Part shown: one piece after another, positions 9,421-38,067 of the stretch
Position numbering within the stretch: position 1 is the stretch's first letter
How the letters are laid out: each line of letters opens with the position of its first letter
Assembly (NCBI GenBank): GCA_021808525.1
Contig: JAKBBK010000005.1
Location: forward strand, 1 to 61,516
Source: Pseudomonadota bacterium
GTDB taxonomy: Bacteria; Pseudomonadota; Gammaproteobacteria; Burkholderiales; Burkholderiaceae_C
DNA: 61,516 nucleotides
Direction: 5' to 3'
The notes under the pieces: generated by a model
The model's database searches: none
What the model was told of the DNA's origin: nothing
What the model saw: only the letters and a program-made list of their open reading frames with translations
Program-made: the position numbers and the translations under genes

Positions 9421-11767
<2,347 letters not shown>

Positions 11768-14804: not shown

Positions 14805-14833
14805 CTTACGCGCCAACCGGAGAATCGGATTCA
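14805..14833 (-). promoter_or_regulatory. Candidate ECF-sigma promoter TGAATCC-N16-CGTAAG
   Basis: On the minus strand TGAATCC (14833-14827) and CGTAAG (14810-14805) are separated by 16 bases, about 65 bases upstream of the ferritin-like ATG. The bipartite GC-type -35/-10 layout is typical of ECF-dependent promoters. A nearly identical element occurs at 38039-38067. Autoregulation by the sigma factor two genes downstream is inferred. Confidence 0.55.
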
Positions 14834-14876
14834 CATCCCTCGCGCGTGGTCCGAGCGCAAGGCCCCGCGCGCGCCG

Positions 14877-15584
14877 TCAACGATCCGGCAGGTCGAACAC
14901 CAGCACCTCGGCGCCCTCGGCCTGGCGCAGTTGCAGCCGGTCGGCGTGGCGCAGCATCAGCGCATCGCCCGCGCCCAGTTCGAGGGCATTGACGTGCAGC
15001 CTTCCGCGCACCAGGTGCACGTAGGCCCGACGCGCCGGATCCAGGGTCAGCTCCGCGTGCTCGCCCGCGTCGAACAGGCCGGCGTACAGGCTCGCATCCT
15101 GGTGCATGCCCAGCGCGCCGTCGCGCGCCTGGCCGTCCACGATGCGGCACAGGCGGCCGCGACGCGCCTGCGCCCCGAAGTGCTTCTGTTCGTATGCCGG
15201 GGCGATGCCCGTCGAGCGCGGCTTGATCCAGATCTGCAGGAAATGCACCGCCTGGGTTTTCGAGGGGTTGAACTCGCTGTGCAGCACCCCCGTGCCCGCG
15301 CTCATGCGCTGTACGTCGCCGGGGCGCAGCGTGGAGCCATTGCCCAGGGAGTCCTGGTGGGCGAGTTCTCCCTCCAGCACGTAGCTGATGATCTCCATGT
15401 CGCGGTGGCCGTGCTCGCCGAATCCCGCACCAGGCTGCACGCGGTCTTCGTTGATCACCCGAAGCGGGCCGAAGTCGATGTGCTGCGGGTCGTAGTAGGA
15501 CGCGAAACTGAAGCTGTGGAAGGACTCCAGCCAACCATGGCTGGCGTGGCCTCGCTGCTCGGACCTGCGAATCTGCTGCAACAT
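14877..15584 (-). CDS. Pirin-family cupin protein
   Basis: 235 residues with two cupin folds. The N-terminal cupin has the pirin metal pattern in GEHGHRDMEIISYVLEG and the signature MSAGTGVLHSEFNPS; the C-terminal half (YVHLVRGRLHVN onward) is the second cupin. This YhaK/pirin group includes quercetin 2,3-dioxygenase-like enzymes and redox-sensitive regulators; the real substrate is unknown. Start at ATG 15584 gives the usual family length. It lies 138 bp upstream of, and is read in the same direction as, the ferritin-like gene, but the ECF promoter lies between them. Confidence 0.88.
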   Translation of the reverse strand: MLQQIRRSEQRGHASHGWLESFHSFSFASYYDPQHIDFGPLRVINEDRVQPGAGFGEHGHRDMEIISYVLEGELAHQDSLGNGSTLRPGDVQRMSAGTGVLHSEFNPSKTQAVHFLQIWIKPRSTGIAPAYEQKHFGAQARRGRLCRIVDGQARDGALGMHQDASLYAGLFDAGEHAELTLDPARRAYVHLVRGRLHVNALELGAGDALMLRHADRLQLRQAEGAEVLVFDLPDR

Positions 15585-15754
15585 GGCTGGAAAGCTGGTG
15601 ATGTACCGGAGGATGTCGGGTGTGCTCAACCATAATCCAATTCCGGTGGATTCGGTACGGCGTGGACGGCGCGCGAGGTGCGCCGTCCGGCTCCGCGGGG
15701 GGATCGGGGCGGCGAATTCGTACACTGTGGCGGCCGCAGCCCCCATGTCGCCGG

Positions 15755-16492
15755 ATGAAGCACCTGCTCGAAAGTCTGTTCTCGGAAAAACACCGCCTGA
15801 CCGCGCGAAGGCGCGCCATGGCGGTGTTGCACGAGATCTGCCGCAACCACGAGAGGTTGAACCTGTTCGCCGACGGTGCGCCGCGCGAGATGCCATCCAT
15901 CCTGCTGGATGTGGACGAGGATGCCGGCACGGTGGTCTTCGATATTCCCCCGGAGGTGGAGGGGGTCCGGTGGGACCAGCGCGAGCCGGTGCTCGCCGTG
16001 GCGCGTTTCGAGGGGGTTTTCGTCGGTTTCGAGCTGGACGATATCGAACCCGTGCCCTGGAACGACGCCCAGGCGCTGCAGGCCGCGTTGCCGCCAAGGG
16101 TGTACTACCTGCAACGGCGCCAGTATTTCCGCGTGCCGGTGGGCAGCGGCGACATCAGCGCCGTGGTGCTGGTGCGCCAGGGCGCGGCGGCGGTCAACGG
16201 ACGCTGCCACGACATCAGCGCCGGCGGCATGCGCGTGCTGGTCAGCCCGGTGGGTGGGGATTTCCCGCTGCGCGCCGGCGAGCTGCTGCAGGAGCTGCGT
16301 TTCCAGCTCAAGGGCACGGCGCTGCAGACGGCGGCGCGCATTCAGCACGTGGATGAGCCGGTGCAGTTGCCCAACGGGAAGAGCCTGGTGCCGCTGGGCC
16401 TGGAGTTTTGCGAAAAGACCTTCGCCTTCGACCAGGCGGTGGTGCGCTATGTGCAGCAGCGCGACCGCGACCTGCTCAGCGGGCGCACTTGA
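15755..16492 (+). CDS. YcgR-like flagellar brake protein with PilZ domain (c-di-GMP receptor)
   Basis: 245 residues: an N-terminal YcgR/PilZN domain (residues 1-120) and a C-terminal PilZ domain with the c-di-GMP-binding RRQYFRVPV (RxxxR) and CHDISAGGM ((D/N)xSxxG) motifs. YcgR slows the flagellar motor when c-di-GMP is high. The ATG at 15755 matches the family start. It precedes a GGDEF-EAL gene in the same direction by 257 bp, so an effector and a c-di-GMP-metabolising enzyme are neighbours. Confidence 0.87.
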   Translation: MKHLLESLFSEKHRLTARRRAMAVLHEICRNHERLNLFADGAPREMPSILLDVDEDAGTVVFDIPPEVEGVRWDQREPVLAVARFEGVFVGFELDDIEPVPWNDAQALQAALPPRVYYLQRRQYFRVPVGSGDISAVVLVRQGAAAVNGRCHDISAGGMRVLVSPVGGDFPLRAGELLQELRFQLKGTALQTAARIQHVDEPVQLPNGKSLVPLGLEFCEKTFAFDQAVVRYVQQRDRDLLSGRT

Positions 16493-16588
16493 GCACGGCC
16501 CCGGCGATGGCCGCCGGATGTGGGGAAATTGTCATAAGTTGCGGGAAATTTCTTCCCTTTGCAGGCTGACCTGGGGGAAGGTCGCCGA

Positions 16589-16616
16589 ATCACGGCACAA
16601 TCACGCCAACATCACG
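16589..16616 (+). repeat. Three direct ATCACG repeats at 11-bp period upstream of the GGDEF-EAL gene
   Basis: ATCACG occurs at 16589, 16600 and 16611, each 11 bases apart, about one helical turn. The flanks are similar too (A/C before, C/A-rich after). The position, 134-161 bases before the start at 16750, suits a binding array for a transcription factor. The surrounding 257-bp gap shows no gene. Confidence 0.45.
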
Positions 16617-16749
16617 ACACCAACACGTCCTCTGCCCTCCGGGCCCCTTGCGCGGGGGCGCAAGGCGGCGTGCCCGCGGGGGCCGTCGCCGCAGCGCGGG
16701 GTCGGCCGGTCCATGAAGTTCCGCATTCCAGCTTTGCCAGCGCCCGTCG

Positions 16750-19700
16750 ATGCCGTCCGAGCCGTCCCGCCAACGCCAGTGGCTTGAATTCGCCACCTCC
16801 ATCCTGCGCGAACTCGTCGCCGGACATGAGCCGTCCGCGCTGGCCCAGCGCCTGTGCCGGCTGGCCGAAAGCCATGCGCCGGGGCGCGTGGCCAGCATCA
16901 TGGTGCTGGGCGAGGATCGGCGCCTGTACGTGTTCGCCGCGCCCGGCGCGCCGCCGGCGCTGCTGGCCGAGTTCGACGGGCTGCGCCCCGGCCAGGGCAG
17001 CGGATCCTGCGGCAACGTCGCCTTGTACGAGCAGCCGGCGCTGGTCGACGACATCGCCTCCGATACCCGCTGGGAGGACCTGCGCGCGCCGGCACAGCGC
17101 TGGGGCCTCGGGTCCTGCCATTCCTACCCCGTCTGGCACGAAGGCGAGCTCATCGGCACCTTCGCCCTGACCGCCACGGCGGCCGGTCCGGCGGCCGCCG
17201 AGGAACTGGAGTTGCTCGAGTTCGCGGCCACCATGGCCGGCACGCTTCTGGGTTTCGAGCGCCTGCGCCGGCGCGGCGAGCGCGAGCAGGCGCTGCACGC
17301 GGCGATGCTGGACAACGCGCTGGTGGGCATGGCCCTGCTGCGGGGGCGCAGCATCCGCGCCGCCAATACCACGCTGGCCCAGATGCTGGGCCATGCCGAT
17401 GCGCGGGAGCTGGTCGGGCGGGGCGTGGACGAGCTCTATGCCGCCTCGGGCGAATTCAGGCGCTGGCGCCAGCAACTGGAAGGGCCGTTGCGCGAGGCCG
17501 GCCAGGCTCGCGCGGAGGTCTGCGTGCGCCGCGCCGACGGCGAAACCGCCTGGTGGGAGATCGCCGGCCGGCGCATCGACCACGACGACGGTGATTTCGA
17601 TTCCGTGTGGTCGGCCGTGGACATCACCCAGCGCCGGCAGGCGCAGGAGCGCCTGCGCTGGCAGGCTCGGCACGATGCGCTGACCCAGTTGCCCAACCGC
17701 CACGGCCTGGACCACTTCCTGCAGCGCGAGCTCGAGCAGGTGGCCCAGGAGGGCGCGCACCTGGCGCTGGGCTGGCTGGACCTGGACGACTTCGCCGCCG
17801 TCAACGAACGCTGGGGCCACCTGGTGGGCGACGCCGTGCTGCGCCAGGTGGCGCAGCGCCTGGGCGGCGCGCTGGGCCCGCGCGACCTGCTCGCGCGCAT
17901 CGGCGGGGACGAGTTCGTGCTGGTGCTCAACCGCGTGGAAGGAGCGGAGCAACTCGCGTCGCGCCTGCGGGCCTTCGAGCAGGCCATGCAGGCCGAGTTC
18001 GGCACCGGCTCCTCGGCGCTGCGCCTGGGCATGAGCCTGGGCCTGGCGATGTTTCCCGACGACGAGACCAGCGTGGACGGCCTGCTGCGCCAGGCCGACG
18101 CCGCGCTGCTGAGCTGCAAGATGCGCAAGGCCGAGCGCGACAACTGGTGGTTGCGCTGGGGCGAGTCCATGCGCGGCGAGCTCTCGGCGCTGGCCGCCGC
18201 GCGCGCGCCCCAGGCCTATGGGGAGGCCGCCGCGCATCTCCTGGCCGAAGCCCAGGCGCAGGGGCTGGGCCTGGACGACGCGCTGCTGCGGGCCTATTTC
18301 GCAAGACTCCACGAGGATGGGCAGACCGCCGCCGCGCTGCAAGCGCTGGACGCGGGCACGCGTGCGCGCCTGCGCGAGCGCGAGACGGCGCAATTGCGCG
18401 CCTTGCTCGAACCCGGCGCGGTCGAGCACGAACGCGGCGACGTGGCCCTGCGCGCGGGACGCAGGCACGCGCTGGTGGGCGTGGCCTCCGCCGCCCTGAC
18501 CCGAGCCCTGTTCGGGCTGCACCATGAGCTCGCCGAGCGCATCGGTCAGCTTCCCATGCACAGCCTGCGTCGCCTGCAACTCCTGGACGTGCTGGCGCAG
18601 CGGGTGAGCCGCGAATTGCAGCAGCGCATCCTGGGGGCCGACGAGGTCACGCGCGCCTACCGGGAATGGGCCACGCAGGCCCTGGGCGAGCTCGAGCGCT
18701 TCGGGGTGTGGGCGGATTTCGTCGGCCATGTCGGCCGCGCGCTGGAGGGCCTGCCCGGCATCGTCGGCGTGGCGCTGGCGCGCCCGCGCGAGGACGGCCG
18801 CTTCGTGTTCGAGTATCACAGCGCGGCCTTGCAGGCGCTGGTGGACATGGGCGCCGAGGTCAGCGGCGAGGGCACCCTGGCGCGCTGCTGGATGCAGGGC
18901 CGGGTGCAGATGACCGTGGTGCATGCCCTCGACCCCACGGTGGCGCGCTGGCACGAGGCCGCGGCCGCTGCCGGCGTGCGCAGCAGCGCGGCCATTCCGG
19001 TGCTCGACGCCCACGGCCGCCCGGTGGCCGTGGTGTCGCTGTTCGCGCGCAATCCCGGCCAGTTCGGGCCCCAGGCCGTCGGCCCCTGGCTGGACACCGT
19101 GATGCAGATCTTCCGCCAGGCCTGGGCGCGCTTCGAGGCCGCCGCGCTCACGCCGCCCATGTCCGGCGCCGCCATGGCGCGCTCGCGCGAGCTGATCGGC
19201 GCGCAGAAGGTGTGCATGCTGTACCAGCCCATCATCGACCTGCGCAATGCCGGCTGCACCAAGGTGGAGGCGCTCGCGCGCCTGAGCGACGGCGAGCGTC
19301 TGCGCACGCCCGACGAATTCCTTCCCGCCTGCGGCAGCGTGGAACTGGGCCAGGTGTTCAGCCAGGGCCTGACCCAGGTGCTGCGCCAGCTGGGCGAATG
19401 GGAACGCGAAGGGCTGCGCGTCGACGCCTCGATCAACCTGCCCCCCAGCGTGCTGCGCCAGCGCGATCTGTGCCTGGTGGTGGAGCGCGCGCTGCTGGCG
19501 CATGGCATCGAGCCCTCGCGCCTGACCTTCGAGCTGCTCGAGACCGAGCAGTGGATCGGCGACTCCAGCATCGACCGCACGGTGGAGTCGCTCAAGGCCC
19601 TGGGCACGCGCATGGCCATGGACGACATGGGGGCCGGGCATTCCACCCTGTTGCGCCTGCGCCAGCTGCAGTTCGACCTGGTGAAGATCGACCGCGGCCT

Positions 19701-19959
19701 GGTGCGCGACATGCCCTCGAACCCGCAGGCGGTGGCGGCCATCGTCGGAGGGCTCACCGAGCTCATGCACCGCCTGGGCCTGGCCGTGGTGGTCGAGGGC
19801 CTGGAAACCCCCGAGCTGGTGCGCCTGGCCGCCGATCTGGGGGCCGACGCCGGGCAGGGCTACGCCATTGCCCGCCCGCTGGGGCCGCTGCAGCTGCTGC
19901 AGTGGTTCCGGGCACGCGGCGTCTCCGAGGGACGGCGAGAGCTCGAGCCGGCCTTATAA
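16750..19959 (+). CDS. GAF-PAS-GGDEF-globin-like-GAF-EAL c-di-GMP turnover protein
   Basis: 1069 residues, soluble. Order: GAF (about 15-175), PAS (about 185-300), GGDEF (GGDEF intact at 385-389), a helical domain (about 490-650), a second GAF (about 655-790) and EAL (EAL at 840-842). The EAL part keeps N in SINLPPS, E in FELLETE, DD in AMDDMGAGHS, K in VKIDRGL, E in VVEGLET and Q in AGQGY, so both cyclase and phosphodiesterase may be active. The helical domain resembles sensor globins: FARL, RLRERETAQLRALLEP and RAGRRHALVGV with candidate proximal haem ligand His573. That suggests oxygen or NO sensing; it is an inference from pattern only. Confidence 0.88.
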   Translation: MPSEPSRQRQWLEFATSILRELVAGHEPSALAQRLCRLAESHAPGRVASIMVLGEDRRLYVFAAPGAPPALLAEFDGLRPGQGSGSCGNVALYEQPALVDDIASDTRWEDLRAPAQRWGLGSCHSYPVWHEGELIGTFALTATAAGPAAAEELELLEFAATMAGTLLGFERLRRRGEREQALHAAMLDNALVGMALLRGRSIRAANTTLAQMLGHADARELVGRGVDELYAASGEFRRWRQQLEGPLREAGQARAEVCVRRADGETAWWEIAGRRIDHDDGDFDSVWSAVDITQRRQAQERLRWQARHDALTQLPNRHGLDHFLQRELEQVAQEGAHLALGWLDLDDFAAVNERWGHLVGDAVLRQVAQRLGGALGPRDLLARIGGDEFVLVLNRVEGAEQLASRLRAFEQAMQAEFGTGSSALRLGMSLGLAMFPDDETSVDGLLRQADAALLSCKMRKAERDNWWLRWGESMRGELSALAAARAPQAYGEAAAHLLAEAQAQGLGLDDALLRAYFARLHEDGQTAAALQALDAGTRARLRERETAQLRALLEPGAVEHERGDVALRAGRRHALVGVASAALTRALFGLHHELAERIGQLPMHSLRRLQLLDVLAQRVSRELQQRILGADEVTRAYREWATQALGELERFGVWADFVGHVGRALEGLPGIVGVALARPREDGRFVFEYHSAALQALVDMGAEVSGEGTLARCWMQGRVQMTVVHALDPTVARWHEAAAAAGVRSSAAIPVLDAHGRPVAVVSLFARNPGQFGPQAVGPWLDTVMQIFRQAWARFEAAALTPPMSGAAMARSRELIGAQKVCMLYQPIIDLRNAGCTKVEALARLSDGERLRTPDEFLPACGSVELGQVFSQGLTQVLRQLGEWEREGLRVDASINLPPSVLRQRDLCLVVERALLAHGIEPSRLTFELLETEQWIGDSSIDRTVESLKALGTRMAMDDMGAGHSTLLRLRQLQFDLVKIDRGLVRDMPSNPQAVAAIVGGLTELMHRLGLAVVVEGLETPELVRLAADLGADAGQGYAIARPLGPLQLLQWFRARGVSEGRRELEPAL

Positions 19960-19991
19960 CCGGCGAGCCTATGGGTATCACCACACGGTAG

Positions 19992-20020
19992 TTGGGATTG
20001 CGGGGGGGCCTGCCTAGCAT
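19992..20020 (+). promoter_or_regulatory. Candidate promoter of the sulfur-assimilation operon
   Basis: TTGGGA (19992-19997) and TAGCAT (20015-20020) are 17 bases apart, 61 bases before the sulfite reductase start. The -10 box sits in the loop of GCCTGC/GCAGGC (20008-20013, 20021-20026), so a protein binding that repeat could block or open it. Confidence 0.45.
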
Positions 20021-20080
20021 GCAGGCTGTGTCGAACCCTGCACGAGCGCCGCAGCCCGGTGTCGTGCGAACCCCCGCCCC

Positions 20081-21799
20081 ATGTACCGCTACAGTGCATT
20101 CGACCGCGCCTTCGTGCATGCGCGCGCGGCCCAGTACCGAGACCAGTTGCGCCGGCACCTGGAAGGCTCGCTGGCCGACGAGGAATTCAAGCCTCTGCGC
20201 CTGCAGAACGGCTGGTACATCCAGCGCCACGCCCCGATGCTGCGCGTGGCCGTGCCCTACGGCGCGCTGGCGACCCGCCAGCTGCGCGCGCTGGCGGACA
20301 TCGCCGAGCGCTTCGACCGCGGCTATGCCCATTTCACGACGCGCCAGAACGTCCAGTACAACTGGATCGAGCTGCCGCGCAGCGCCGACGTCATGGACCT
20401 GCTGGCCGAGGTGGACATGCATGGCATCCAGACCAGCGGCAACTGCGTGCGCAACATCACCACCGACGCGCTGGCCGGGGTGGCCCCGGACGAGATCGCC
20501 GACCCGCGCCCCTATTGCGAGATCCTGCGCCAGTGGAGCACCCTGCACCCCGAATTCGCCTTCCTGCCGCGCAAGTTCAAGATCGCCGTGGGCGGCTCGC
20601 TGGAAGACCGCGTGGCCTCCGGCTGGTACGACATCGGCATGCACCTGGTGCGTGATGGCGCGGGCGAGCTCGGCCTGCGCGTGCTGGTGGGCGGGGGCAT
20701 GGGCCGCACGCCGCTGATCGGCAGCGTGGTGCGCGAATTCCTGCCGGTTCGCCACATGCTGCACTACACCGAGGCCATCCTGCGGGTCTACAACCTGTAC
20801 GGACGCCGTGACAACCTGTGGAAGGCGCGCATCAAGATTCTCGTGCGATCCGAGGGCCAGGGCTTCGTGGACGCGGTGGAGCGCGAATTCGCCACCATGC
20901 TCGAGCGCGACGTGGGGGCCGAGGCCCTGCTGGTGACCGAGGCCCAGGTGCAGGCGATGGCCGAGCATTTCGAGGCGCCGCCCGAGCAGGAGCCGACGCC
21001 GGCGCAGGTCGCCGAAGCGGCCGAAGCCAGGCGTCGCGCCGCGGCCGACCCGGCGCACGCCCGCTGGATCGCGCGCAACGTGCGGGCGCATCGTCTGGCC
21101 GACCACCGCGTGGTCACGCTGTCGCTCAAGCGACCGGGGCAGGCGCCGGGCAACGCGACGGCGCAGCAGATGCGCGCCGCCGCGGCACTGGCCGAGCGCT
21201 TCGGGCGCGGCGAGTTGCGCGTGAGCCACGAGCAGAACCTGGTGCTGCCGTGGGTGCGCGAATCCGAGCTGGCCCTGCTCTGGGAGCAGGCTCGCGAGGC
21301 CGGCATGGCCACCCCCAACATCGGCTTGCTGGGCGACATCATCGCCTGCCCCGGCGGCGACTTCTGCGCCCTGGCGAATGCACGCTCGCTGCCGGTGGCC
21401 GAGGACATCGCCCAGCGCTTCCAGGACCTCGATGAAATGTTCGACATCGGCGACCTGGACCTGAACATCAGCGGTTGCATCAACTCCTGCGGGCACCACC
21501 ACAGCGGCCACATCGGCATCCTCGGCGTCGACAAGGACGGCTCCGAGTGGTACCAGATCACGGTCGGCGGCGGCGATGGGTCCGCCCACGGCGGCAGCGC
21601 CTCGCCCGGACGCATCATCGGCGCATCCTTCGCCGCCGACGAAGTGGCCGACGCGGTGGAGGCGCTGATCGAGGTGTACCGGGAACAGCGCCTGCAGGGC
21701 GAACGTTTCATCGACACGGCGCGCCGGCTCGGTCCGGCGCCTTTCGCGGCGGCCGCTGACGCGGTGCGACGCAGCACGGCACGCAAGGTGGCAGCATGA
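20081..21799 (+). CDS. cysI: Assimilatory sulfite reductase haemoprotein (nitrite/sulfite reductase family)
   Basis: 572 residues. It carries the sirohaem/[4Fe-4S] cysteines C423 and C429 in CPGGDFC and C466 and C470 in SGCINSCGHH, plus FTTRQNVQYNW and TSGNCVRNITTD sirohaem-binding motifs. It reduces sulfite to sulfide in the cytosol. The gene order with DUF934, cysH, cysD, cysN and a SUMT supports sulfite rather than nitrite as the substrate. First gene of a six-gene operon; its stop overlaps the next ATG (ATGA at 21796). No flavoprotein partner (cysJ) is present, as usual in this lineage. Confidence 0.92.
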   Translation: MYRYSAFDRAFVHARAAQYRDQLRRHLEGSLADEEFKPLRLQNGWYIQRHAPMLRVAVPYGALATRQLRALADIAERFDRGYAHFTTRQNVQYNWIELPRSADVMDLLAEVDMHGIQTSGNCVRNITTDALAGVAPDEIADPRPYCEILRQWSTLHPEFAFLPRKFKIAVGGSLEDRVASGWYDIGMHLVRDGAGELGLRVLVGGGMGRTPLIGSVVREFLPVRHMLHYTEAILRVYNLYGRRDNLWKARIKILVRSEGQGFVDAVEREFATMLERDVGAEALLVTEAQVQAMAEHFEAPPEQEPTPAQVAEAAEARRRAAADPAHARWIARNVRAHRLADHRVVTLSLKRPGQAPGNATAQQMRAAAALAERFGRGELRVSHEQNLVLPWVRESELALLWEQAREAGMATPNIGLLGDIIACPGGDFCALANARSLPVAEDIAQRFQDLDEMFDIGDLDLNISGCINSCGHHHSGHIGILGVDKDGSEWYQITVGGGDGSAHGGSASPGRIIGASFAADEVADAVEALIEVYREQRLQGERFIDTARRLGPAPFAAAADAVRRSTARKVAA

Positions 21800-22311
21800 A
21801 ATTCATCGATTCCTCCCGCGATCCCTGGCGCGCCCACCAGCCCGCGGACCCCGCGGCCCAGGCGGCTCCCACGCACGCCCTGCTGGCCCTTCAGGACTGG
21901 CTGGATCTCGATTCCTCGGCGCGCGAGCGCCTGGCCCGAGGCTCGCGCATCGGTTTGCTGCTGCCCAACGATTTCGAGCTCGAGGCACTGGCCCCCGAGT
22001 TGCCCCGCCTGAGCCTGCTGGCGCTGCAGTTTCCCAAATGGACCGACGGCCGCGCCTACACCCAGGCCAGGCTGCTGCGCCTGCGTCATCGCTACACCGG
22101 CGAACTGCGGGCCACCGGCCAGGTGCTGGTCGACATGCTGCTGCCGCTGGCACGCAGCGGTTTCGATGCCGCCCAGCTGCGCGAGGACCAGGATCCGCTG
22201 GCGGCGCGGCGCGCGCTGGAATTCTTCCCCGGACACTACCAGGCCGATGCGCGGCAGCCGCTGCAGCGACCCGCCGGCCTGGGCTGGGCGGCCCTGGGGG
22301 TCGCGGCATGA
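21796..22311 (+). CDS. DUF934 protein of the sulfite-reduction operon
   Basis: 171 residues, DUF934 family. The recognisable core is RIGLLLPNDFELEALAPELP, FPKWTDGRAYTQARLLR, ATGQVLVDML, and FDAAQLREDQDP. Members are encoded next to sulfite reductase in many beta- and alphaproteobacteria and are assumed to assist it, possibly in electron transfer or assembly; no reaction is established from this sequence. ATGA overlaps at both ends tie its translation to its neighbours. Confidence 0.88.
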   Translation: MKFIDSSRDPWRAHQPADPAAQAAPTHALLALQDWLDLDSSARERLARGSRIGLLLPNDFELEALAPELPRLSLLALQFPKWTDGRAYTQARLLRLRHRYTGELRATGQVLVDMLLPLARSGFDAAQLREDQDPLAARRALEFFPGHYQADARQPLQRPAGLGWAALGVAA

Positions 22312-26180: not shown

Positions 26181-26333
26181 GCGCGCGGCCTCTGGCCGCC
26201 TCTCGCCCACGGGGGGCGCCTGACTCACGCGGCGCCACGGTAGCACGCTGAAGGAACTCTTACGCCTCGGGCATGGAGCCCGCGGTGCTCGACCGGTAGT
26301 CTGGCAGACCCGCGTCCTCATCCGCCTGCCGTC

Positions 26334-26831
26334 TTGTTCGCGCGCCTCCGACTCGTCGTCCCATCCGCAGGGCCGCGCTCGCGCCTGCCGCGGTGCGCCT
26401 TGCCCTGGCCGATGGCCGCCCTGTGCCTGGGCTTGTCGCTCCTGGCGGGCAGTGCGTGCGCGGCGCTGCCGCCGCCGGTGTCGTGGAGCGCCGCCCAACA
26501 GCGTGCATCGGGGCTGCGCATCGCTCGTCTGGCGCCGGCGGAGTTCCGGCATGCGCGGCGGCCGCCGGTGCGCGCGGTCCGGGTTCCCGACTCCGCCGTA
26601 TTGTTCGTGGATGGCCGGGCCCTGGCCTTCGTGGCATCGCCGGCCGCCGCCGGCGGCGACCGCCAGTTCACCCCACGGGTGATTTCCACGGACTGGCCCT
26701 CCGACGGCGGCTATGTGCAGCCGGGCTGGCAGGCGCTGGAGGTGGTCACCGGGGGCGCCGAGCTGCTGCTCACGCCGCCGCCGGAGGCGCACACCCTGCC
26801 ACCGGCCGGCGGCGCCTGGAACCGGCGCTGA
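26334..26831 (+). CDS. Exported stub resembling the C-terminal end of an RND adaptor protein
   Basis: About 165 residues. After a signal-like segment (MAALCLGLSLLAGSACA) comes a short domain with SAVLFVDGRALAFVASP, QFTPRVIS and GYVQPGWQALEVVTGGAELLL, a pattern like the membrane-proximal end of CzcB/MFP adaptors. The hairpin, lipoyl and beta-barrel parts of a normal 350-residue adaptor are missing. The start is uncertain: TTG 26334 gives a basic N-region, ATG 26412 starts inside the hydrophobic part. The stop overlaps the RND permease ATG (TGATG at 26829-26833), which supports a shared function. Confidence 0.6.
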   Translation: MFARLRLVVPSAGPRSRLPRCALPWPMAALCLGLSLLAGSACAALPPPVSWSAAQQRASGLRIARLAPAEFRHARRPPVRAVRVPDSAVLFVDGRALAFVASPAAAGGDRQFTPRVISTDWPSDGGYVQPGWQALEVVTGGAELLLTPPPEAHTLPPAGGAWNRR

Positions 26832-30911: not shown

Positions 30912-30926
30912 CGCGACTCCCAGGTC

Positions 30927-31598
30927 TCAATGCTTGCCACGGCCGAACAGGCCGGCCAACCAGGACTTGAGCAGGGCCCACAGGATGGCCAGCCCGTTGA
31001 GTTCGCCCGCGGAGGCGCGCGGCGCGGCCGCGGAGTTCGGCTGCGCGCCCGGGCGCGCATCGGTCGTGGAAGAGGGCGCCTGCGGCGAAGGGGTCCTCGC
31101 CTCGGGCGCGGCGCCTTCCGGGGCTGCCGAGGCCGAGGGCAGTTGCTGGGCCGCGGCCTGGAAGTTCGCCACGAACTGGCTCAGCAGCAGTTCCGAGACC
31201 GGCATCATCATGCGCGCGCCGAATTGCGCGAATTTGCCCGTGACCACCACGCGGGCGTCACCATGCAGCGTGACCTGGCCCGGAGCGTCGGCGCCAGGTT
31301 CGAGCTCGGCGTGCAGTTCCATCGAGGCCGAGGAACCGCTCTTGTCGGCGCCCTTGCCGCGCAGGCCCAGGCGGCGGGCGCCGGCGTCCAGTTCGAGCAC
31401 CTCCACCGTGCCGCCGAACTGGGCCTGCGCCGGGCCCACCTTCACCTTCATCAGCCCCTGGTAGTTCGTCTCGGACAACTGCTCGGTGATCTGCGCGCCC
31501 GGCATGCAGCCGGCCACGGCGCGAATATCGCTGAGCAGGGCCCATGCGCGTTCGGGGTCCACCTGCAGCGGGTAACGCTTGTCGATTTGGACTTCCAT
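30927..31598 (-). CDS. CoxG-like SRPBCC protein
   Basis: 223 residues. Residues 1-150 form the CO dehydrogenase subunit G (CoxG) SRPBCC fold (MEVQIDKRYPLQVDPERAWA, MPGAQITEQL, QFVANFQAAAQQL). A Pro/Ala-rich linker follows and then a short amphipathic tail (LAILWALLKSWLAGLFGRG), which in CoxG tethers the molybdo-hydroxylase to the membrane. It is directly upstream of xdhC (15 bp) and divergent from a purine permease by 146 bp, so a membrane-linked xanthine or aldehyde oxidoreductase elsewhere in the genome is likely. Confidence 0.88.
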   Translation of the reverse strand: MEVQIDKRYPLQVDPERAWALLSDIRAVAGCMPGAQITEQLSETNYQGLMKVKVGPAQAQFGGTVEVLELDAGARRLGLRGKGADKSGSSASMELHAELEPGADAPGQVTLHGDARVVVTGKFAQFGARMMMPVSELLLSQFVANFQAAAQQLPSASAAPEGAAPEARTPSPQAPSSTTDARPGAQPNSAAAPRASAGELNGLAILWALLKSWLAGLFGRGKH

Positions 31599-31744
31599 GA
31601 TGGTTCCGCAACCAGAAGTTGGCGCCGCCCAGGAGCCGGCGACGGGCCCAAGAATAAATGGGCCGGGTGCAAGTTTGCATCCAATCCCGCAATTTCGCAG
31701 GCTGCTAGGCTACGCCTGGCCCGCGAAACCGGAGGAGAACAACC

Positions 31745-33043
31745 ATGAATCTGCAATCCCTGTTCAAGTTGGGGGAGCACGGAACCGACGTACGCACCGA
31801 GGTGATGGCCGGCGTGACGACCTTCCTGACCATGTCGTACATCATTTTCGTCAACCCGTCGATCCTGTCCACCACGGGCATGGACCACAACGCCGTGTTC
31901 GTCGCCACCTGCCTGGCCGCGGCCGTGGGTACCTTCATCATGGCTTTCGTCGCCAACTGGCCGGTGGGGCTGGCTCCGGGCATGGGTCTGAATGCCTTTT
32001 TCGCCTTCACCGTGGTCAAGGGCATGGGTTTCACCTGGCAGCAGGCGCTGGGTGCGGTGTTCATTTCCGGCTGCGTGTTCGTCGCGCTGACCATCACCGG
32101 CCTGCGACGCTGGCTGGTGGCGGGAATCCCGAGTTCCCTGCGCAGCGCCATCGCCGCCGGCATCGGCATGTTCCTGGCGATCATCGCGCTGTCGGGCGCC
32201 GGCATCGTGGTGGCCAACCCGGCCACCAAGGTCGGCCTGGGCAACCTGCACAGCCTGCCGGTGCTGCTCGCGGCGCTGGGCTTCCTGCTGATCGCCGTGC
32301 TGGACTATTTCCGCCTGCGCGGAGCGATCCTCATCGGCATCCTGGCGGTGACCGTGGCCAGCATGCTGCTGGGCCTGACCCATTTCCAGGGCATCGTGTC
32401 CACCCCGCCGAGCATCTCCCCGACCCTGCTCAAGCTGGATATCCCCGGGGCGCTGCGCGGGGGCTTTTTCCACATCATCCTGGTGTTCGTGCTGGTGGAG
32501 ATCTTCGACGCCACGGGCACCCTGACCGGGCTGGCGCGCAAGGCGGGCCTGCTCGACGGGGCGCGCGAGGAAGGCCTGGGCAGGGCCCTGTTCGCCGACA
32601 GCCTGGCGATCTTCTCCGGCTCGCTGCTGGGCACCAGCAGCACCACCGCCTACATCGAGAGCGCCTCCGGCGTGCAGGCGGGAGGGCGCACCGGACTGAC
32701 GGCGCTGACCGTGGGCCTGCTGTTCCTGGCCGCGCTGTTCTTCGCCCCGCTGGCCGCGGTGGTGCCGCCATGGGCCACCGCGCCGGCCCTGCTGTACGTG
32801 GCCGGGCTGATGATGCGCGAGTTGCTGCAGATCGACTGGAGCGACGTCACCGAGGCCGTGCCCTCGGCGCTGGCCGCGCTGGTCATGCCCTTCACCTACT
32901 CCATCGCCAACGGTCTGGCCTTCGGCTTCATCGCCTACGCGGCCCTCAAGCTGTTCACCGGACGCGCGCGCGAGGTGCACCCGGCGCTGTGGGTGGTGGC
33001 GGCGCTTTTCGTGCTGCGTTTCGCCCTGTTCCCCGCCGATTGA
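31745..33043 (+). CDS. NCS2-family purine permease (AzgA-like)
   Basis: 432 residues and about 12-14 membrane segments. Diagnostic pieces are EVMAGVTTFLTMSYIIFVNP, PGMGLNAFFAF, EIFDATGTLTGLARKAGL, GTSSTTAYIESASGV and the C-terminal TYSIANGLAFGFIAY, typical of the AzgA/GhxP adenine-guanine-hypoxanthine branch. It imports purines with protons. GGAGGAG precedes the ATG by 7 bases. Its divergent neighbour operon (CoxG-XdhC) concerns molybdo-hydroxylases, which fits purine oxidation. No purine riboswitch structure is visible in the 146-bp leader. Confidence 0.93.
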   Translation: MNLQSLFKLGEHGTDVRTEVMAGVTTFLTMSYIIFVNPSILSTTGMDHNAVFVATCLAAAVGTFIMAFVANWPVGLAPGMGLNAFFAFTVVKGMGFTWQQALGAVFISGCVFVALTITGLRRWLVAGIPSSLRSAIAAGIGMFLAIIALSGAGIVVANPATKVGLGNLHSLPVLLAALGFLLIAVLDYFRLRGAILIGILAVTVASMLLGLTHFQGIVSTPPSISPTLLKLDIPGALRGGFFHIILVFVLVEIFDATGTLTGLARKAGLLDGAREEGLGRALFADSLAIFSGSLLGTSSTTAYIESASGVQAGGRTGLTALTVGLLFLAALFFAPLAAVVPPWATAPALLYVAGLMMRELLQIDWSDVTEAVPSALAALVMPFTYSIANGLAFGFIAYAALKLFTGRAREVHPALWVVAALFVLRFALFPAD

Positions 33044-33078
33044 AGCGCTCGAGCCCCGCGGCGCGCCGCGGGGCTGCC

Positions 33079-34320
33079 TCAGGACAGGCTGTCGTAGCGC
33101 GCCAGGGCCGGGAACATGCGGCGCCACAGCAGCACGATGCCCAGGGTTCCCAGCCCGCCCAGAACCACCGCGGGCACGGCGCCGAACCAGGCCGCGGTGA
33201 AGCCGGACTCGAATTCCCCGAGCTGGTTGGAGGCGCCGATGAACAGGGAGTTCACCGCGTTCACCCGCCCGCGCAGCGCATCCGGGGTCTGCAGCTGCAC
33301 CAGGGTGCCGCGGATCACCACGCTGATCAGGTCCGAGCCTCCCAGCACGGCCAGGGCCAGCATCGACAAGCCCGTCCAGCGCGACAGGCCGAACACCACG
33401 GTGGCCAGGCCGAACACCGCGACGGTGGAGAACATCAGGCGCCCGGCGTGGCGCTGGACCGGGTGGCGCGCCAGCCAGGCCGCAGTGAGCAGGGCGCCGA
33501 CCGCCGGGCAGGCGCGCAGCATGCCCAGGCCCCAGGGGCCGATGTGCAGGATGTCCCGCGCGTACACCGGCAACAGCGCCGTGGCGCCACCCAGCAGCAC
33601 CGCGAACAGATCCAGCGAAATGGCCCCGAGCACGACCGGGTGCGCGCGGATGTAGCGCACGCCCTCCAGCATGGAGTCCAGGGTGATGCGCGCGCGCGTG
33701 GCGGCGTGCACGCGCGGCAGGCTCAGCAGCAAGGCCGCGCCGAGCAGGTCGATCACGCAGGCCAGGCCGTAGCCCAGCCCCGGGCCCAGGGCGATGAGCA
33801 GGCCGCCCAGCGCCGGCGCGATCACGCTGGCGGCCTGGGTGGCCGAGGCGGCCAGCGCGATGGCGCGGGCCAGCAGGTCCTGCGGCACCAGCGCCGGCAG
33901 CATGGCCTGCATGCCCGGGGTGTCGAAGGCGCGGCAGGCGCCCACCAGCGCCGACAGGCCCAGGATCAGTGCCCGCCCGGGCTGCAGGCCCCAGCCCTGG
34001 GTCGCGGCGACCAGCACCCCGGCGGCAAGGGCCTGCAAGGCCATGCTGAGCGCGACCACGTCCCGGCGTTCGAAACGGTCGACCACGCTGCCGGCGACCA
34101 GCACCAGCGCCATGCGCGGCAGGAACTGCAGCAGGCCGACGAGGCCCAGGTCGAAGGCGCTGCCGGTGATCGCGTACATCTGCCAGGCGATGGCCACGCT
34201 GAGCATCTGGTAGGCACCGGTCAGCGCGACGCGGGCCAGCCAGAACCGGGCGAAACCGGGAATGCTCCAGACCGAGACTTCGGAGGGCACGGAGGGCGCG
34301 GGGGGCGGGGTGGGAGGCAT
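33079..34320 (-). CDS. MFS transporter, EntS/exporter-like
   Basis: 413 residues with twelve predicted helices; FARFWLARVALTGAYQMLSVAI, VVDRFERRDVV after helix 2 and DALRGRVNAVNSLFIGASNQLGEFESG match the enterobactin-exporter (EntS)-like MFS group. Substrate unknown. Start taken at ATG 34320 (MPPTPPPAP); an ATG 14 codons upstream is possible. It is divergent from the ModE-like regulator with a long palindrome between them, and converges with the purine permease gene. Confidence 0.85.
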   Translation of the reverse strand: MPPTPPPAPSVPSEVSVWSIPGFARFWLARVALTGAYQMLSVAIAWQMYAITGSAFDLGLVGLLQFLPRMALVLVAGSVVDRFERRDVVALSMALQALAAGVLVAATQGWGLQPGRALILGLSALVGACRAFDTPGMQAMLPALVPQDLLARAIALAASATQAASVIAPALGGLLIALGPGLGYGLACVIDLLGAALLLSLPRVHAATRARITLDSMLEGVRYIRAHPVVLGAISLDLFAVLLGGATALLPVYARDILHIGPWGLGMLRACPAVGALLTAAWLARHPVQRHAGRLMFSTVAVFGLATVVFGLSRWTGLSMLALAVLGGSDLISVVIRGTLVQLQTPDALRGRVNAVNSLFIGASNQLGEFESGFTAAWFGAVPAVVLGGLGTLGIVLLWRRMFPALARYDSLS

Positions 34321-34395
34321 CGATCGGCGGCGGCTGCCACGCGGTGGCGCGAAGCTCCACATTGTCGGAGGGAACGGCCGGCGCTGCAGGGTGTC

Positions 34396-34429
34396 GGCCG
34401 CCGCGCGGTCCACGGACCGCGCGGCGGCC
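34396..34429. repeat. Perfect 16-bp-arm palindrome between the MFS and ModE-like genes
   Basis: Arms at 34396-34411 and 34414-34429 are exact reverse complements with a 2-base centre. It lies 76 bp from the MFS start and 57 bp from the regulator start, so it is a natural operator candidate for the ModE-like protein. It has no T tract in either direction. It is unlike the AT-rich ModE boxes of E. coli. Confidence 0.7.
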
Positions 34430-34486
34430 CTATGCTGTGGGCCGGGTGGCGCACGTGGTGCCGCCTTCGCAACCTCCCGGCTTCGC

Positions 34487-34894
34487 ATGCCCGACCCCGC
34501 TGCCCGCAAGGCTCCACAACCCGCCACCTCGCAGGCGTCCGAGTACGCCCCCGAGGTGCGTTTTCGGCTGCGCCTGACCCAGGGCGCACGCATCGCCGTG
34601 GGGCCCGGCAGGATCGAGCTGCTGGAAGCCGTGCGCGAGGCCGGCTCGATCACCGCGGCGGCGCGCGGCCTGGGCATGTCCTACCGGCGTGCCTGGATGC
34701 TGCTCGATGATCTCAATCGCTGCCTGCGCGCGCCGGTGGTGGAGTCGGTGCACGGAGGCGCCCAGGGTGGAGGCAGCCGCCTGACCGACACGGGCCTGGA
34801 GCTCGTGCGCCTGTACCGGCACATCGAGCAGACCGCCCAGCGAGCTTGCGGCGAGGACATCGAGGCCCTGAAGGGCCTGCTGGCCAGGCCCTAG
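34487..34894 (+). CDS. ModE-like single-domain winged-HTH regulator
   Basis: 135 residues corresponding to the N-terminal DNA-binding domain of ModE: RIELLEAVREAGSITAAARG, MSYRRAWMLLDDLNRCL, and VVESVHGGAQGGGSRLTDTG. The molybdate-binding (TOBE/MOP) domains are absent, as in the family of short ModE-like regulators. It probably regulates the divergent MFS gene or itself. Proximity to XdhC/CoxG suggests a molybdenum theme but this is inference. ATG 34487 is the first Met that gives a normal N-terminus. Confidence 0.87.
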   Translation: MPDPAARKAPQPATSQASEYAPEVRFRLRLTQGARIAVGPGRIELLEAVREAGSITAAARGLGMSYRRAWMLLDDLNRCLRAPVVESVHGGAQGGGSRLTDTGLELVRLYRHIEQTAQRACGEDIEALKGLLARP

Positions 34895-34904
34895 CAGGCC
34901 GTTC

Positions 34905-36995
34905 CTAGGCGGTGCCCGGCGCCTGGCTCCGCGCCTGGTTCTGGAGCATCCATTCGCTGGCCGCCTGCGCGTCCAGCGGACGCGCGTACAGATAGCCCTG
35001 CCCGAAATCGCAGTCGATGTCGCGCACGCGGGCCAGCTCCTCCTCGGTCTCGATGCCCTCGGCGATGACGCCGATTCCCAGGCGGTGCGCCATGGCGACG
35101 ATGGCCTCGCAGATCGCGTGCTTGCGCGTATCCCCGGGAAGCCTGCGCACCAGGGACTGGTCGATCTTCAGGTAATCCACCTCCACCCGGCTGAGCGAGG
35201 CCAGGTTGGAGTGGCCGGTGCCGAAGTCGTCCACCGCGACCTGCAGCCCGCGCGCGCGCAGATCCCGCAGGCGCTGCGCGATGCGCGGGGATTCGTCCAG
35301 GATCACCGTTTCGGTCACTTCCACCACCAGGCGCTGCGGCGGCAGCCCGATGCGCTCCAGGTAGTCGATCCAGCCCGGCGTGGGGTCGCGGTCGGCGGCC
35401 AATTGCACCGGCGAGACGTTGAAACTCAACTGCGGCCCCTGGCCGTCCGGGCCCTGCCAGCGCAGCGCCTGCTCGGCGGTGCTGCGAAACACCCATTCGC
35501 CGATCTCCACGATCAGCCCGCTTTCCTCGGCCAGCGCGATGAATCGCGCGGGTTGCACCACGCCGAAGGCCGGGTGCCGCCAGCGCAGCAGGGCCTCGAA
35601 CTTGGCCAGCGAGCCGTCCGCGGTGCGCACCACCGGCTGGTACAGCAGGTACAGCTCGCCCAGCCGGGATGCGCGGCGCAGGTCCCCGACCAGCACCAGG
35701 CGCCCGCGCGCGCGCTGGTCCATCGACGCCTCGTAGACCACCGTGCGGTTGCGACCGGCGTGCTTGGCCTCGTACATGGCCAGATCGGCGCAGCGCAGCA
35801 GGTCCTCCGGGGCGCCGGCATCCTGCGGAAACACCGCCAGGCCGATGCTGGCGGAGATATGGATGGCATGGCCGTCGATCGGGAAGGGGGAGGCCAGCGC
35901 CTCGAGCAGCTTGACGCCGACCCGGCGCGCCGTGCGCGCATCGGCCGGCGCGGGCAGCAGCACGCTGAACTCGTCGCCGCCCAGGCGAGCCAGCACGTCG
36001 GAGGCGCGCAGCGCCGAGCGCAGGCGCTCGGCCACCGCGCCCAGCAGCGCATCGCCAGCCCCATGCCCCAGCGAATCGTTGACCGACTTGAAGTGATCGA
36101 GATCCACGTAGAGCAGGGCGAAGGCGAGCTGGTCGCGCTGCGCGCGCTGGGCCTCCAGGCCCAGGCGCTGGCCGAAGGCATGGCGGTTGGGAAGCCCGGT
36201 CAGCGTGTCCTGGTTGGCCTGGCGCCAGATGGTCTGCGCGGCCCGGATGCGTTCGCCGATGTCGCGCGCGATCTTGGACGCGCCGACGATGCGTCCGGCG
36301 GCGTCGCGCAGCGGGGAGATGGTCACGGAGACGTGCACGAGGTGACCGTCGCGGTGCACGCGCACGGTCTCGAAATGCTCGACGCGTTCGCCGTCGGCGA
36401 TGCGCTGCAGGATCATTTCCTCCTCGTGCAGGCGCTCCACCGGGATCAGCTTGGTGATCGGCTCGCCGATCATGTCCGCCGCGCTGTAGCCGAAGATGCG
36501 CTGGGCCCCGGGATTCCAGCTCAGCACGATGCCCCCGAGGGTCTTGGTGACGATGGCGTCGTCGGTGGACTCGACCAGGGATTCGTACACATTGATCGGC
36601 TGCGTCCTGGGCCCGGACTCCTGGACCGCGGACAGGGCCTGGCGCAGCGGATGCACCGTCACCAGCGTGCCCACGGCGCCAAGCCGGGAATCCTGCAGCG
36701 GGCGCCGTGTCACCAGCGCCGAGATCAGGGTGCCCCCCGCACCGCGCACCAGCGCCGGGGAACTCAGGGCTTTCACGGCCTCGGAGTCGCGACCCGGCAG
36801 GGGCGGGTTGTGCTGCACCAGCAGCGCCTCGATCGGCTGCCCCAGCGCCTGGGGTGCCGAGTGCCCGAACAGGCGCTGCGCGGCGGGATTCCAGCTGCTG
36901 ACCCGCCCGTCGGGCGTGAGGCTGACCATGGCGTCGTCGTGCGATGCGACGATGGCCTCGAACAGGCAGACCTTGGCTCGTGACTGCGGGTCCAT
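34905..36995 (-). CDS. PAS-PAS-GGDEF-EAL bifunctional c-di-GMP protein
   Basis: 696 residues, no membrane helix. Two PAS domains (about 10-125, with SSWNPAAQRLFGHS, and 135-260, with LSWNPGAQRIFGYS), then GGDEF (intact at residues 339-343) and EAL (EAL at 467-469). All EAL catalytic positions are kept: N in SFNVSP, E in EVTETV, DDFGTGHSN, K in YLKIDQSL, E in AEGIET and Q in FGQGY. Both synthesis and hydrolysis of c-di-GMP are possible. It is convergent with the ModE-like gene (10 bp) and is a likely partner of the PilZ receptor at 15.8 kb. Confidence 0.94.
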   Translation of the reverse strand: MDPQSRAKVCLFEAIVASHDDAMVSLTPDGRVSSWNPAAQRLFGHSAPQALGQPIEALLVQHNPPLPGRDSEAVKALSSPALVRGAGGTLISALVTRRPLQDSRLGAVGTLVTVHPLRQALSAVQESGPRTQPINVYESLVESTDDAIVTKTLGGIVLSWNPGAQRIFGYSAADMIGEPITKLIPVERLHEEEMILQRIADGERVEHFETVRVHRDGHLVHVSVTISPLRDAAGRIVGASKIARDIGERIRAAQTIWRQANQDTLTGLPNRHAFGQRLGLEAQRAQRDQLAFALLYVDLDHFKSVNDSLGHGAGDALLGAVAERLRSALRASDVLARLGGDEFSVLLPAPADARTARRVGVKLLEALASPFPIDGHAIHISASIGLAVFPQDAGAPEDLLRCADLAMYEAKHAGRNRTVVYEASMDQRARGRLVLVGDLRRASRLGELYLLYQPVVRTADGSLAKFEALLRWRHPAFGVVQPARFIALAEESGLIVEIGEWVFRSTAEQALRWQGPDGQGPQLSFNVSPVQLAADRDPTPGWIDYLERIGLPPQRLVVEVTETVILDESPRIAQRLRDLRARGLQVAVDDFGTGHSNLASLSRVEVDYLKIDQSLVRRLPGDTRKHAICEAIVAMAHRLGIGVIAEGIETEEELARVRDIDCDFGQGYLYARPLDAQAASEWMLQNQARSQAPGTA

Positions 36996-37052
36996 GGCGC
37001 GGATCTCCCATTGCGCGACACGATGATGTTCGCCGCGCCCAGGATAGCCCTT

Positions 37053-37853
37053 TCAGGCGCGCCTGAACACTCCGCGCAGCAACTGCGCGGCGCCGCCGCC
37101 CGAGGCGAAGGCGACGTGGCCCAGCGCGGCGGCGCTGAGGGCGCCGACCATGGCCAGGAAGTAGGCGCCCGGCAGTCCGCCGCGCTGCAGCCACAGCGCC
37201 ACGACCAGGTTGAAGGTGGCGGCTCCCAGGCAGCCGACGATGATGCCACGCAGCAGGGCGCGTGCCGCCTCGGGGCCCGCCTGCCGGTGCGTGAAACCCC
37301 CCATGGTCGCCGACAGCACCGGAAGCGCGGCCAGCATGCCGCTCCAGGTGGGGCCCAGGTGCAGCGAGGCCGCCGTGATGCCCAGCACCACGGCCAGGGC
37401 GAAGGCCATGCGCGCCGGCAGGTCCCACCAGGGGTGCGGCGTCTGCAGGATCGGTCCCTGCCGGCCCGCCAGCAGCGCCAGCGCCACCAGGGCCGGAAAC
37501 ACCATCGCGGCGGCCATGCCGGGGCGCTGGGGCAGGCGTGCCAGCACCAGGAACAGGCATCCGCTGGCCAGGCTTGCCAGCAGCAGGGCGGGGGCCCAGC
37601 GGCGCCCCCGCGCGGCGCGCGCATAGGTCGCGCAGAAACCGGCCGTGCCGGTCAGTCCCAGCAGGGTGCCCACCGCCGCGCGCGAAGCGAAATCGGGGCC
37701 GTTCTGCACCGCCAGGAACACCGACAGCGGCGCGGAGGTCAGCGGCAGGCCGGTCAGCAGCCCGCCGATGGACCCCCCGAAGCGTCGCTGCAGCAGGGTC
37801 GCGCCGAGGACCAGCAGCGGGGTGATCGCGATCTTGAACAGCAGCAGGCTCAT
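37053..37853 (-). CDS. Integral membrane protein of unknown function
   Basis: 266 residues with about 8-9 hydrophobic segments, starting MSLLLFKIAITPLLVLGATL and containing GGLLTGLPLTSAPLSVFLAV and GMLAALPVLSATMGGFTH. The two GGxLxGLPLxxxP-like segments in each half hint at an internal duplication, as in small transporters. The family was not recognised with certainty. It starts 250 bp from the lipid cluster and is divergent from it, sharing the region with the TGTC-N3-GACA repeats. Confidence 0.7.
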   Translation of the reverse strand: MSLLLFKIAITPLLVLGATLLQRRFGGSIGGLLTGLPLTSAPLSVFLAVQNGPDFASRAAVGTLLGLTGTAGFCATYARAARGRRWAPALLLASLASGCLFLVLARLPQRPGMAAAMVFPALVALALLAGRQGPILQTPHPWWDLPARMAFALAVVLGITAASLHLGPTWSGMLAALPVLSATMGGFTHRQAGPEAARALLRGIIVGCLGAATFNLVVALWLQRGGLPGAYFLAMVGALSAAALGHVAFASGGGAAQLLRGVFRRA

Positions 37854-37898
37854 GGTGAACCCGCAGTCTAGGGGTTTGCGAGCGCCCCGGCATGGGGA

Positions 37899-37926
37899 TT
37901 GCAAGATTTTGCGTCGAGGGTATGGC
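37899..37926 (+). promoter_or_regulatory. Possible housekeeping-type promoter upstream of the lipid cluster
   Basis: TTGCAA (37899-37904) and TATGGC (37921-37926) with a 16-base spacer. The first TGTC-N3-GACA palindrome begins 6 bases downstream, over the expected start site. The match is moderate and the distance to the first gene is about 170 bases. Confidence 0.3.
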
Positions 37927-37931
37927 GCGCG

Positions 37932-38001
37932 TGTCCATGACAAACATGGGATTGTGTGCAGAATGACCCAGTGCATCCTGCATCTGTCCTGGACAAACAT
38001 G
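37932..38001 (+). repeat. Two operator-like 17-bp repeats with TGTC-N3-GACA cores, 53 bp apart
   Basis: TGTCCATGACAAACATG (37932-37948) and TGTCCTGGACAAACATG (37985-38001) differ at two bases. Each core is a palindrome (TGTC-CAT-GACA and TGTC-CTG-GACA). The centre spacing of 53 bp is five helical turns, as expected for a dimeric regulator bound twice on one face. They lie upstream of the ECF-type promoter of the lipid cluster and also upstream of the divergent membrane protein. Confidence 0.65.
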
Positions 38002-38038
38002 CGACAATGCGCAGGAAAGGCATCCCGCACGGGAATCC

Positions 38039-38067
38039 TGAATCCGTTGCGGCTCGCGCAGCGTATG
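38039..38067 (+). promoter_or_regulatory. Candidate ECF-sigma promoter TGAATCC-N16-CGTATG of the lipid cluster
   Basis: TGAATCC (38039-38045) and CGTATG (38062-38067) have a 16-base spacer and end 37 bases before the ATG at 38104. The same -35 sequence, spacer length and CGTA core occur at 14805-14833 upstream of the ferritin-like/ECF sigma unit. Shared recognition by that sigma factor is inferred. Confidence 0.6.

Follow-up and report, generated by a model that had tools for sequence, protein, structure and literature searches.

Does a single extracytoplasmic function (ECF) sigma factor control both its own genes and a distant set of lipid-modification genes? The question is raised by a stretch of 61,516 nucleotides from a Pseudomonadota bacterium of the GTDB family Burkholderiaceae_C (GenBank assembly GCA_021808525.1, contig JAKBBK010000005.1, positions 1 to 61,516; hereafter, the window), in which two nearly identical promoter-like elements stand before a ferritin–sigma–anti-sigma unit and before a lipid operon. 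Our answer, to which we assign a probability of roughly 0.8 on the basis of sequence comparison, is that an RskA-controlled ECF sigma factor drives its own unit and, 23 kb away, the lipid operon, with a LitR-type regulator as a second control of the latter. Observed directly were the promoter-like sites and their recurrence, the link between these sites and the sigma group, and the gene families involved. An earlier examination of the window without database searches (the sequence-only reading) had already suggested that one ECF sigma factor with an RskA partner governs the lipid cluster as well as the operon it belongs to, which would be a different route to a target like that of RpoE/ChrR in Rhodobacter. 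This suggestion is supported by the conservation of the sites in the two closest genomes, by a number of sites that, across 150 genomes, goes with the presence of the sigma group, by the gene content of the operon, and by ECF11–ChrR pairs found beside homologous clusters in seven genomes.

The pattern TGAATCC-N15..17-CGTA occurs in the window exactly twice, both times with a 16-base spacer (N16), and was absent from 100 dinucleotide shuffles. On the minus strand, the pattern scan gave TGAATCC-N16-CGTAAG at 14833-14805 (CGTA core to 14807), upstream of the ferritin-like gene that leads the sigma unit. The ATG of this gene, at 14738, lies 66 bases past the -10 hexamer. On the plus strand, TGAATCC-N16-CGTATG occupies positions 38039-38067 (core to 38065), and the first ATG of the lipid operon follows at 38104. 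The sequence-only reading had correctly described the equal -35, spacer length and CGTA core of the two sites, and also the lack of a properly spaced CGTA at the other TGAATCC heptamers, of which there are four among the six in the window. It had placed the second site correctly but given its distance to the first lipid gene as 37 bases, which we find to be 36 bases counted from the end of the -10 hexamer.

A scan of the whole genome (G000, 3.21 Mb in 144 contigs), a check that the sequence-only reading had proposed, gave four matches to the pattern, compared to one for the reversed site pattern, which served as the control. Three of the matches are N16 sites in promoter position, before the ferritin gene, the lipid gene and an HD-domain gene. 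The N17 match on contig C140 has no same-strand gene start within 900 bases downstream and is not promoter-placed. The N15 and N17 matches in G000 and its two closest relatives were rejected as promoters, being either intragenic or without a gene in front.

The unit behind the first site reads, on the minus strand, Ferritin_2 protein, ECF sigma factor, RskA_C anti-sigma. The Ferritin_2 protein (14160-14738; Pfam PF13668, 9e-33) carries what by eye looks like a Tat-type signal. The sigma factor (13466-14023) is SigK-like, of the ECF18/19 type according to structure matches and alignment: its closest solved structure is SigK (4nqw, 1.1e-22), whereas RpoE (2q1z) scores only 3.7e-12. The anti-sigma protein (12723-13469; PF10099, 7.7e-21) has a hydrophobic stretch near residues 101-124, with a mean hydropathy of 2.43 over the 19 residues from position 104. 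Its sequence contains no cysteine and so lacks the His/Cys zinc-binding set of ChrR, and a Pfam scan of it returned RskA_C alone, with no cupin domain. The partner is of the RskA rather than the ChrR type, as the sequence-only reading had held, and the sigma factor is SigK/RskA-like, not RpoE/ChrR-like. The promoter of the unit likewise has TGAATCC, not the TGATCC-N16-CGTA of ECF11 factors. Two cysteines of the sigma factor, Cys128 and Cys178, are separated by 50 residues and are invariant in all nine aligned sigmas; SigK of Mycobacterium tuberculosis has two cysteines with the same separation, C133 and C183 (PMC7509140; this and all other papers are cited from excerpts). The conserved pair may add redox control to the sigma factor.

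The operon behind the second site consists of seven plus-strand genes. They encode an oxidoreductase of the amine-oxidase type that depends on flavin adenine dinucleotide (FAD) (38104-39474, PF01593), a DUF1365 protein (39471-40244, PF07103, 3e-76), an S-adenosylmethionine-dependent methyltransferase of the CFA/CMAS type (40241-41515, PF02353), a chalcone-isomerase-like protein (41469-42098, PF16036), an MFS_2 transporter (42095-43423, PF13347), a DUF3833 protein (43420-43980, PF12915) and a short-chain dehydrogenase (SDR; 44007-44768, PF00106). In its predicted products the operon resembles the furan-fatty-acid cluster ufaD-ufaO-ufaM. The DUF1365 protein is UfaO-like, and the FAD and CFA-type proteins were likened to UfaD and UfaM from their family and their place in the gene order rather than by aligning the sequences. 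The published furan-fatty-acid pathway comprises ufaD (RSP1091), ufaO (RSP1090, a DUF1365 protein) and ufaM, and is raised in a chrR mutant (PMC7380195); the RSP1087-1091 set includes SDR and lipoprotein members (PMC5507510). The gene content of the window cluster is of the kind reported for the ECF11 target RSP1091-1087, with a CFA-type methylase in addition.

Comparison across 150 genomes of the family shows that the two sites are retained in the two closest to G000, namely G032 (same genus) and G049. In both relatives the site recurs before the ferritin–sigma–anti-sigma unit as well as before the FAD gene. At the lipid promoter, TGAATCC and CGTATG are identical in all three genomes, although the spacers between them agree at only 3-4 of 16 positions, no more than expected by chance. 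The gene upstream of this promoter differs: it is a divergent membrane gene (37053-37853) in the window and the end of folE2 in G032 and G049, where a gpx-folE2 pair stands just upstream. That pair is itself preceded by TGCATCC-N16-CGTA in G032 and TGAATCC-N16-CGTA in G049. A tblastn search, which covered the window only, found no match to gpx or folE2 there. Further N16 sites precede DUF3034 genes in both relatives and, in G049, the genes for a DUF3455 protein and an alpha/beta hydrolase; one N16 site of G049 is intragenic.

The site follows the sigma factor more widely. Among 30 ferritin loci compared, eight have this sigma (at least 33% identity over 172 or more residues) within 1.5 kb, and the strict site is present in all eight. 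It faces the sigma gene in two of them (L041, L047); in each of the remaining six it faces either the ferritin gene or both genes. The remaining 22 loci comprise 19 without the site, three of which show only weak or partial sigma matches, and three (L040, L043, L048) with the site but without such a sigma in the stretch. In L048 (G114) the sigma was found in a larger stretch, which makes this the ninth case; in L043 (G064) it lies about 5 kb off; the contig of L040 is short. A search with a profile of nine sigmas (E at most 1e-67) placed the sigma group in 34 of the 150 genomes, with G003 and G046 classed as sigma-negative. The 34 positive genomes contain 170 sites, a mean of 5.0, against 12 for the reversed control, and the 116 others 127 sites (mean 1.1; control 46), a difference in site number with a Mann-Whitney p of 8e-14. 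The strict site was also present in 23 of 80 loci of named sigma relatives and not in the other 57 (reversed control 0). In Pseudomonas, six of nine loci carry TGCATCC-N16-CGTATATC; the excerpts contain no published ECF18/19 consensus. In loci of a distant sigma subgroup, DUF3034 genes are again neighbors of the sigma or of the ferritin gene that accompanies it.

For the lipid gene we counted TG[A/C]ATCC-N16-CGTA sites in promoter position up to 3 kb before the FAD gene, either directly in front of it or before a gpx gene leading to it; some contigs stop short of 3 kb upstream. Sites within LitR genes (G021, G062, G114) and within a lipid gene (G113, G006) were excluded as promoters. A clear site was found in 10 of the 31 sigma-positive genomes that have the gene (G000, G032, G049, G138, G131, G085, G099, G057, G047 and G137) and in none of the 26 sigma-negative genomes examined out of 83 with an FAD gene (Fisher 1e-3). 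Since the clear site is present in only 10 of 31, the lipid operon is not in every case a target of the sigma factor. In the Thiomonas group it appears to be one, and the link to the lipid genes is not general in the wider family.

The evidence for a second control lies immediately upstream of the lipid promoter, and was absent from the sequence-only reading. Palindromes of the form TGTCCnnGACAAA begin at 37932 and at 37985, and the genome contains no other exact copy. A pattern search delimits them as TGTCCATGACAAA (37932-37944, plus strand) and TGTCCTGGACAAA (37985-37997, plus strand), both putative LitR-type operators, and the first is overlapped by a sigma-70-like promoter, ATGACA-16-CAGAAT (37937-37964, plus strand), which is a consensus match only. 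The palindromes are similar to those found in relatives beside a gene for a LitR-type B12/MerR protein. The 13-base pattern TGTCYWKGACAAA is matched twice per genome in G000, G032 and G049, and not at all in the control. In G000 both are at the lipid promoter; a MerR/B12-type LitR-like gene and gpx flank the two of G049 and those of G032 (one palindrome, matched on both strands). A LitR-like regulator at 56-59% identity is encoded in G000 on contig C119; it has MerR helix-turn-helix and B12-binding domains (PF13411, PF02607, PF02310), and a shorter palindrome of a similar kind is found at the start of its gene. This gene (L298 6329-7186) is divergent from an ORF that by eye resembles a second DUF3833 protein, with a TTGTCCTGGACAA palindrome between them. 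The combination of MerR and B12-binding domains is that of the B12-dependent LitR/CarH photoregulators, and in the relatives the gene adjoins the cluster. A joint MerR and ChrR control has been described for the blue-light response of Vibrio cholerae (PMC5241685). The anti-sigma factor there is ChrR, whereas the partner here would be of the RskA type.

Several observations weigh against the preferred reading, in which the RskA-linked sigma drives both units. Among the three genomes the ferritin-promoter spacers agree at 6-8 of 16 positions and those of the lipid promoter at only 3-4, so that the footprint at the ferritin promoter is the weaker one. The distance from the site to the lipid ATG is 232 bases in G032, compared to 36 in G000 and 47 in G049, and the LitR gene of G000 is not beside the lipid cluster. 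The association across the family is also imperfect. Sigma-negative genomes show a mild excess of sites over the control (127 versus 46), with at least four sites in 8 of the 116, and 4 of the 34 sigma-positive genomes contain no site or one; hence, other factors may read similar sites, or sigma genes may have been missed. No clear site is seen at the lipid gene of 21 of the 31 sigma-positive genomes. The site of G134 is doubtful, as it lies 480 bases upstream in a poor gene context (if counted, 11 of 31 and p 5e-4), and those of G114, G021 and G062, being inside LitR genes, do not count. Furthermore, the cut for the sigma group was chosen post hoc, at a gap between 4.7e-68 and the next match at 2.7e-57, and the palindrome pattern TGTCYWKGACAAA was composed only after the loci had been viewed. 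Finally, the genome is 90% complete, in its 144 contigs.

A different arrangement around the same kind of operon is seen in some more distant members of the family. At seven loci, chosen out of at least ten where ECF11 adjoins the lipid gene, an ECF gene and a ChrR-like gene stand beside the homologous FAD gene (G122, G105, G056, G069, G111, G088 and G003). The best solved relative of the G122 sigma is RpoE (2q1z, 2e-42), its neighbor matches ChrR (2z2s, 5e-40) and Cupin_7, and the corresponding genes of the other six loci match these two. The sigma gene carries TGATC[C/T]-N16-CGTA in all seven cases (TGATCC in three, TGATCT in four), in agreement with the published ECF11 promoter TGATCC-N16-CGTA (PMC4336711, PMC5507510). 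The best FAD-facing site in 430 positions lies 74-118 bases before the aligned start at each locus, with an exact CGTA, an N16 spacer and one or two mismatches to TGATCC (xAATCC in six, AGATCC in one). Taken together, there is about an even chance that one family wires a lipid oxidative-stress operon to two sigma/anti-sigma pairs through nearly the same promoter: an adjoining ECF11–ChrR pair (TGATC[C/T], mostly xAATCC at the lipid gene) or a distant SigK/RskA-type pair (TG[A/C]ATCC). One or two bases of the -35 element would then exchange the sensor, zinc/cupin ChrR for membrane RskA, while a LitR-type light regulator would remain the second input. This proposal is weakened because G046 showed no ECF pair and because the lipid-facing ECF11 sites mismatch TGATCC by one or two bases. 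Since the FAD proteins at the ECF11 loci are only 44-52% identical to that of the window, both a true replacement and parallel recruitment are possible. G046 was dropped as an eighth ECF11 locus: no ECF or ChrR gene was found in its stretch, in which two divergent, exact TGATCC sites precede a CFA-like gene.

The closeness of the two promoters raises the question of whether another sigma factor of the same cell, such as an ECF11 factor of the RpoE/ChrR type, reads the window sites instead of the RskA-linked one. The ECF11 promoter agrees in spacing and in the kinds of genes it serves (PMC4336711, PMC5507510), and the lipid gene of the seven ECF11 loci is preceded by the looser xAATCC or AGATCC form. 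Moreover, G000 encodes a Cupin_7 (ChrR-cupin) protein (L019 2319-3005), and one of its two TGATCC-N16-CGTA matches (G000:C119:122208-122233) lies 25 bases before a same-strand gene. This site is within the end of one gene, and the gene downstream looks transporter-like by eye. However, the three close genomes together give 33 matches to sigma region 2, and among the 30 of these that were compared, the ECF11 factors of relatives match the RskA-linked sigma best in each genome, at 30-33%. No ECF11 is therefore seen among the 30 compared sigmas; the other three are weak matches without a locus. As for the Cupin_7 protein, it contains two stretches of cupin type, and its contig, C37, gave no sigma match. 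An ECF11/ChrR pair in G000 was rejected on these two grounds, and we regard a driver other than the RskA-linked sigma as unlikely.

It is also conceivable that a LitR-type regulator and sigma-70 alone control the lipid operon, the TGAATCC there being a chance match or a relic. The palindromes and the sigma-70-like promoter are compatible with this, as are several sigma-negative genomes in which a LitR-like gene adjoins the cluster but the ECF site is absent, and the 21 sigma-positive genomes without a clear one. Nevertheless, the -35 and -10 elements are the same in three genomes across spacers that have diverged to the chance level, they persist next to different upstream genes in the window and in the other two genomes, and window shuffles give none, all of which makes LitR and sigma-70 alone a distinctly improbable explanation. 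Coincidence, with both sites arising at random in a genome that is large and GC-rich, can be given almost no weight, for despite two further matches in G000 it is largely refuted by the shuffles, the reversed-pattern controls and the recurrence before orthologous genes.

For the preferred arrangement, in which the RskA-linked sigma drives both units, the following mechanism can be proposed. The membrane anti-sigma (12723-13469) would hold the SigK/RskA-type sigma (13466-14023) until an oxidative signal in the envelope, probably, frees it. RNA polymerase with the freed sigma would read TG[A/C]ATCC-N16-CGTA. The promoter at 14833-14805 would then drive the ferritin–sigma–anti-sigma genes in an autoregulatory loop, and that at 38039-38067 the operon from the FAD oxidoreductase through DUF1365, CFA methylase, chalcone-isomerase-like, MFS and DUF3833 proteins to the SDR. 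The operon probably makes methylated or furan fatty acids that guard the membrane from oxidants. The second control would probably come from binding of the palindromes by the LitR-like MerR/B12 regulator, whose gene lies in another part of the genome.

The closest known counterpart of the sigma pair is SigK–RskA of M. tuberculosis and Yersinia enterocolitica. The likeness consists of SigK being the closest solved relative, of the paired cysteines, and of an anti-sigma that has the RskA_C domain and a single hydrophobic helix but lacks cysteine. The M. tuberculosis SigK is variously placed in ECF18 (PMC7509140) and AS19 (PMC7406223). RpoT of Pseudomonas putida is likened by name only. The targets named for these systems differ from ours: they are mpt70/mpt83 for SigK and the TtgGHI pump for RpoT (PMC3597554), not a fatty-acid modification operon. 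The RpoE–ChrR (ECF11) singlet-oxygen regulon has in common with the window sites the ATCC-N16-CGTA core and the kinds of targets, namely furan-fatty-acid genes, cfa and a periplasmic glutathione peroxidase (PMC7380195, PMC6852236, PMC4336711). It differs in its TGATCC element and zinc/cupin ChrR, compared to TG[A/C]ATCC and an RskA partner here. Among the matches listed from the open-licence literature, the excerpts contain no report of an RskA-type sigma joined to this lipid cluster.

These genomes offer a natural series for the change of a regulon's sigma factor, with homologous targets, the same spacing and -10, and -35 elements differing by one or two bases. A single family provides both sensing mechanisms, and its genomes include some with either of the two and some with none. 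The comparison further points to a promoter and a regulon (ferritin-like protein, glutathione peroxidase, DUF3034, DUF3455 and lipid operon) for a little-studied group of proteobacterial RskA-type sigmas.

A few minor observations were made in the course of the scans. Genes that by eye are msrA, msrB and katG lie at 8380-11767 of the window, 1-6 kb from the sigma unit, and no such site was found near them, even with one -35 mismatch allowed. The third N16 site of G000 (C2:21709-21735) is within the end of a gene, with the HD-domain (HD_5) gene following 46 bases further on. In three loci of the distant sigma subgroup (L099, L100 and L101), sites cluster near the ferritin gene around DUF3034, DUF3455, hemoglobin-like and cupredoxin-like genes, the last two of which were named by eye.

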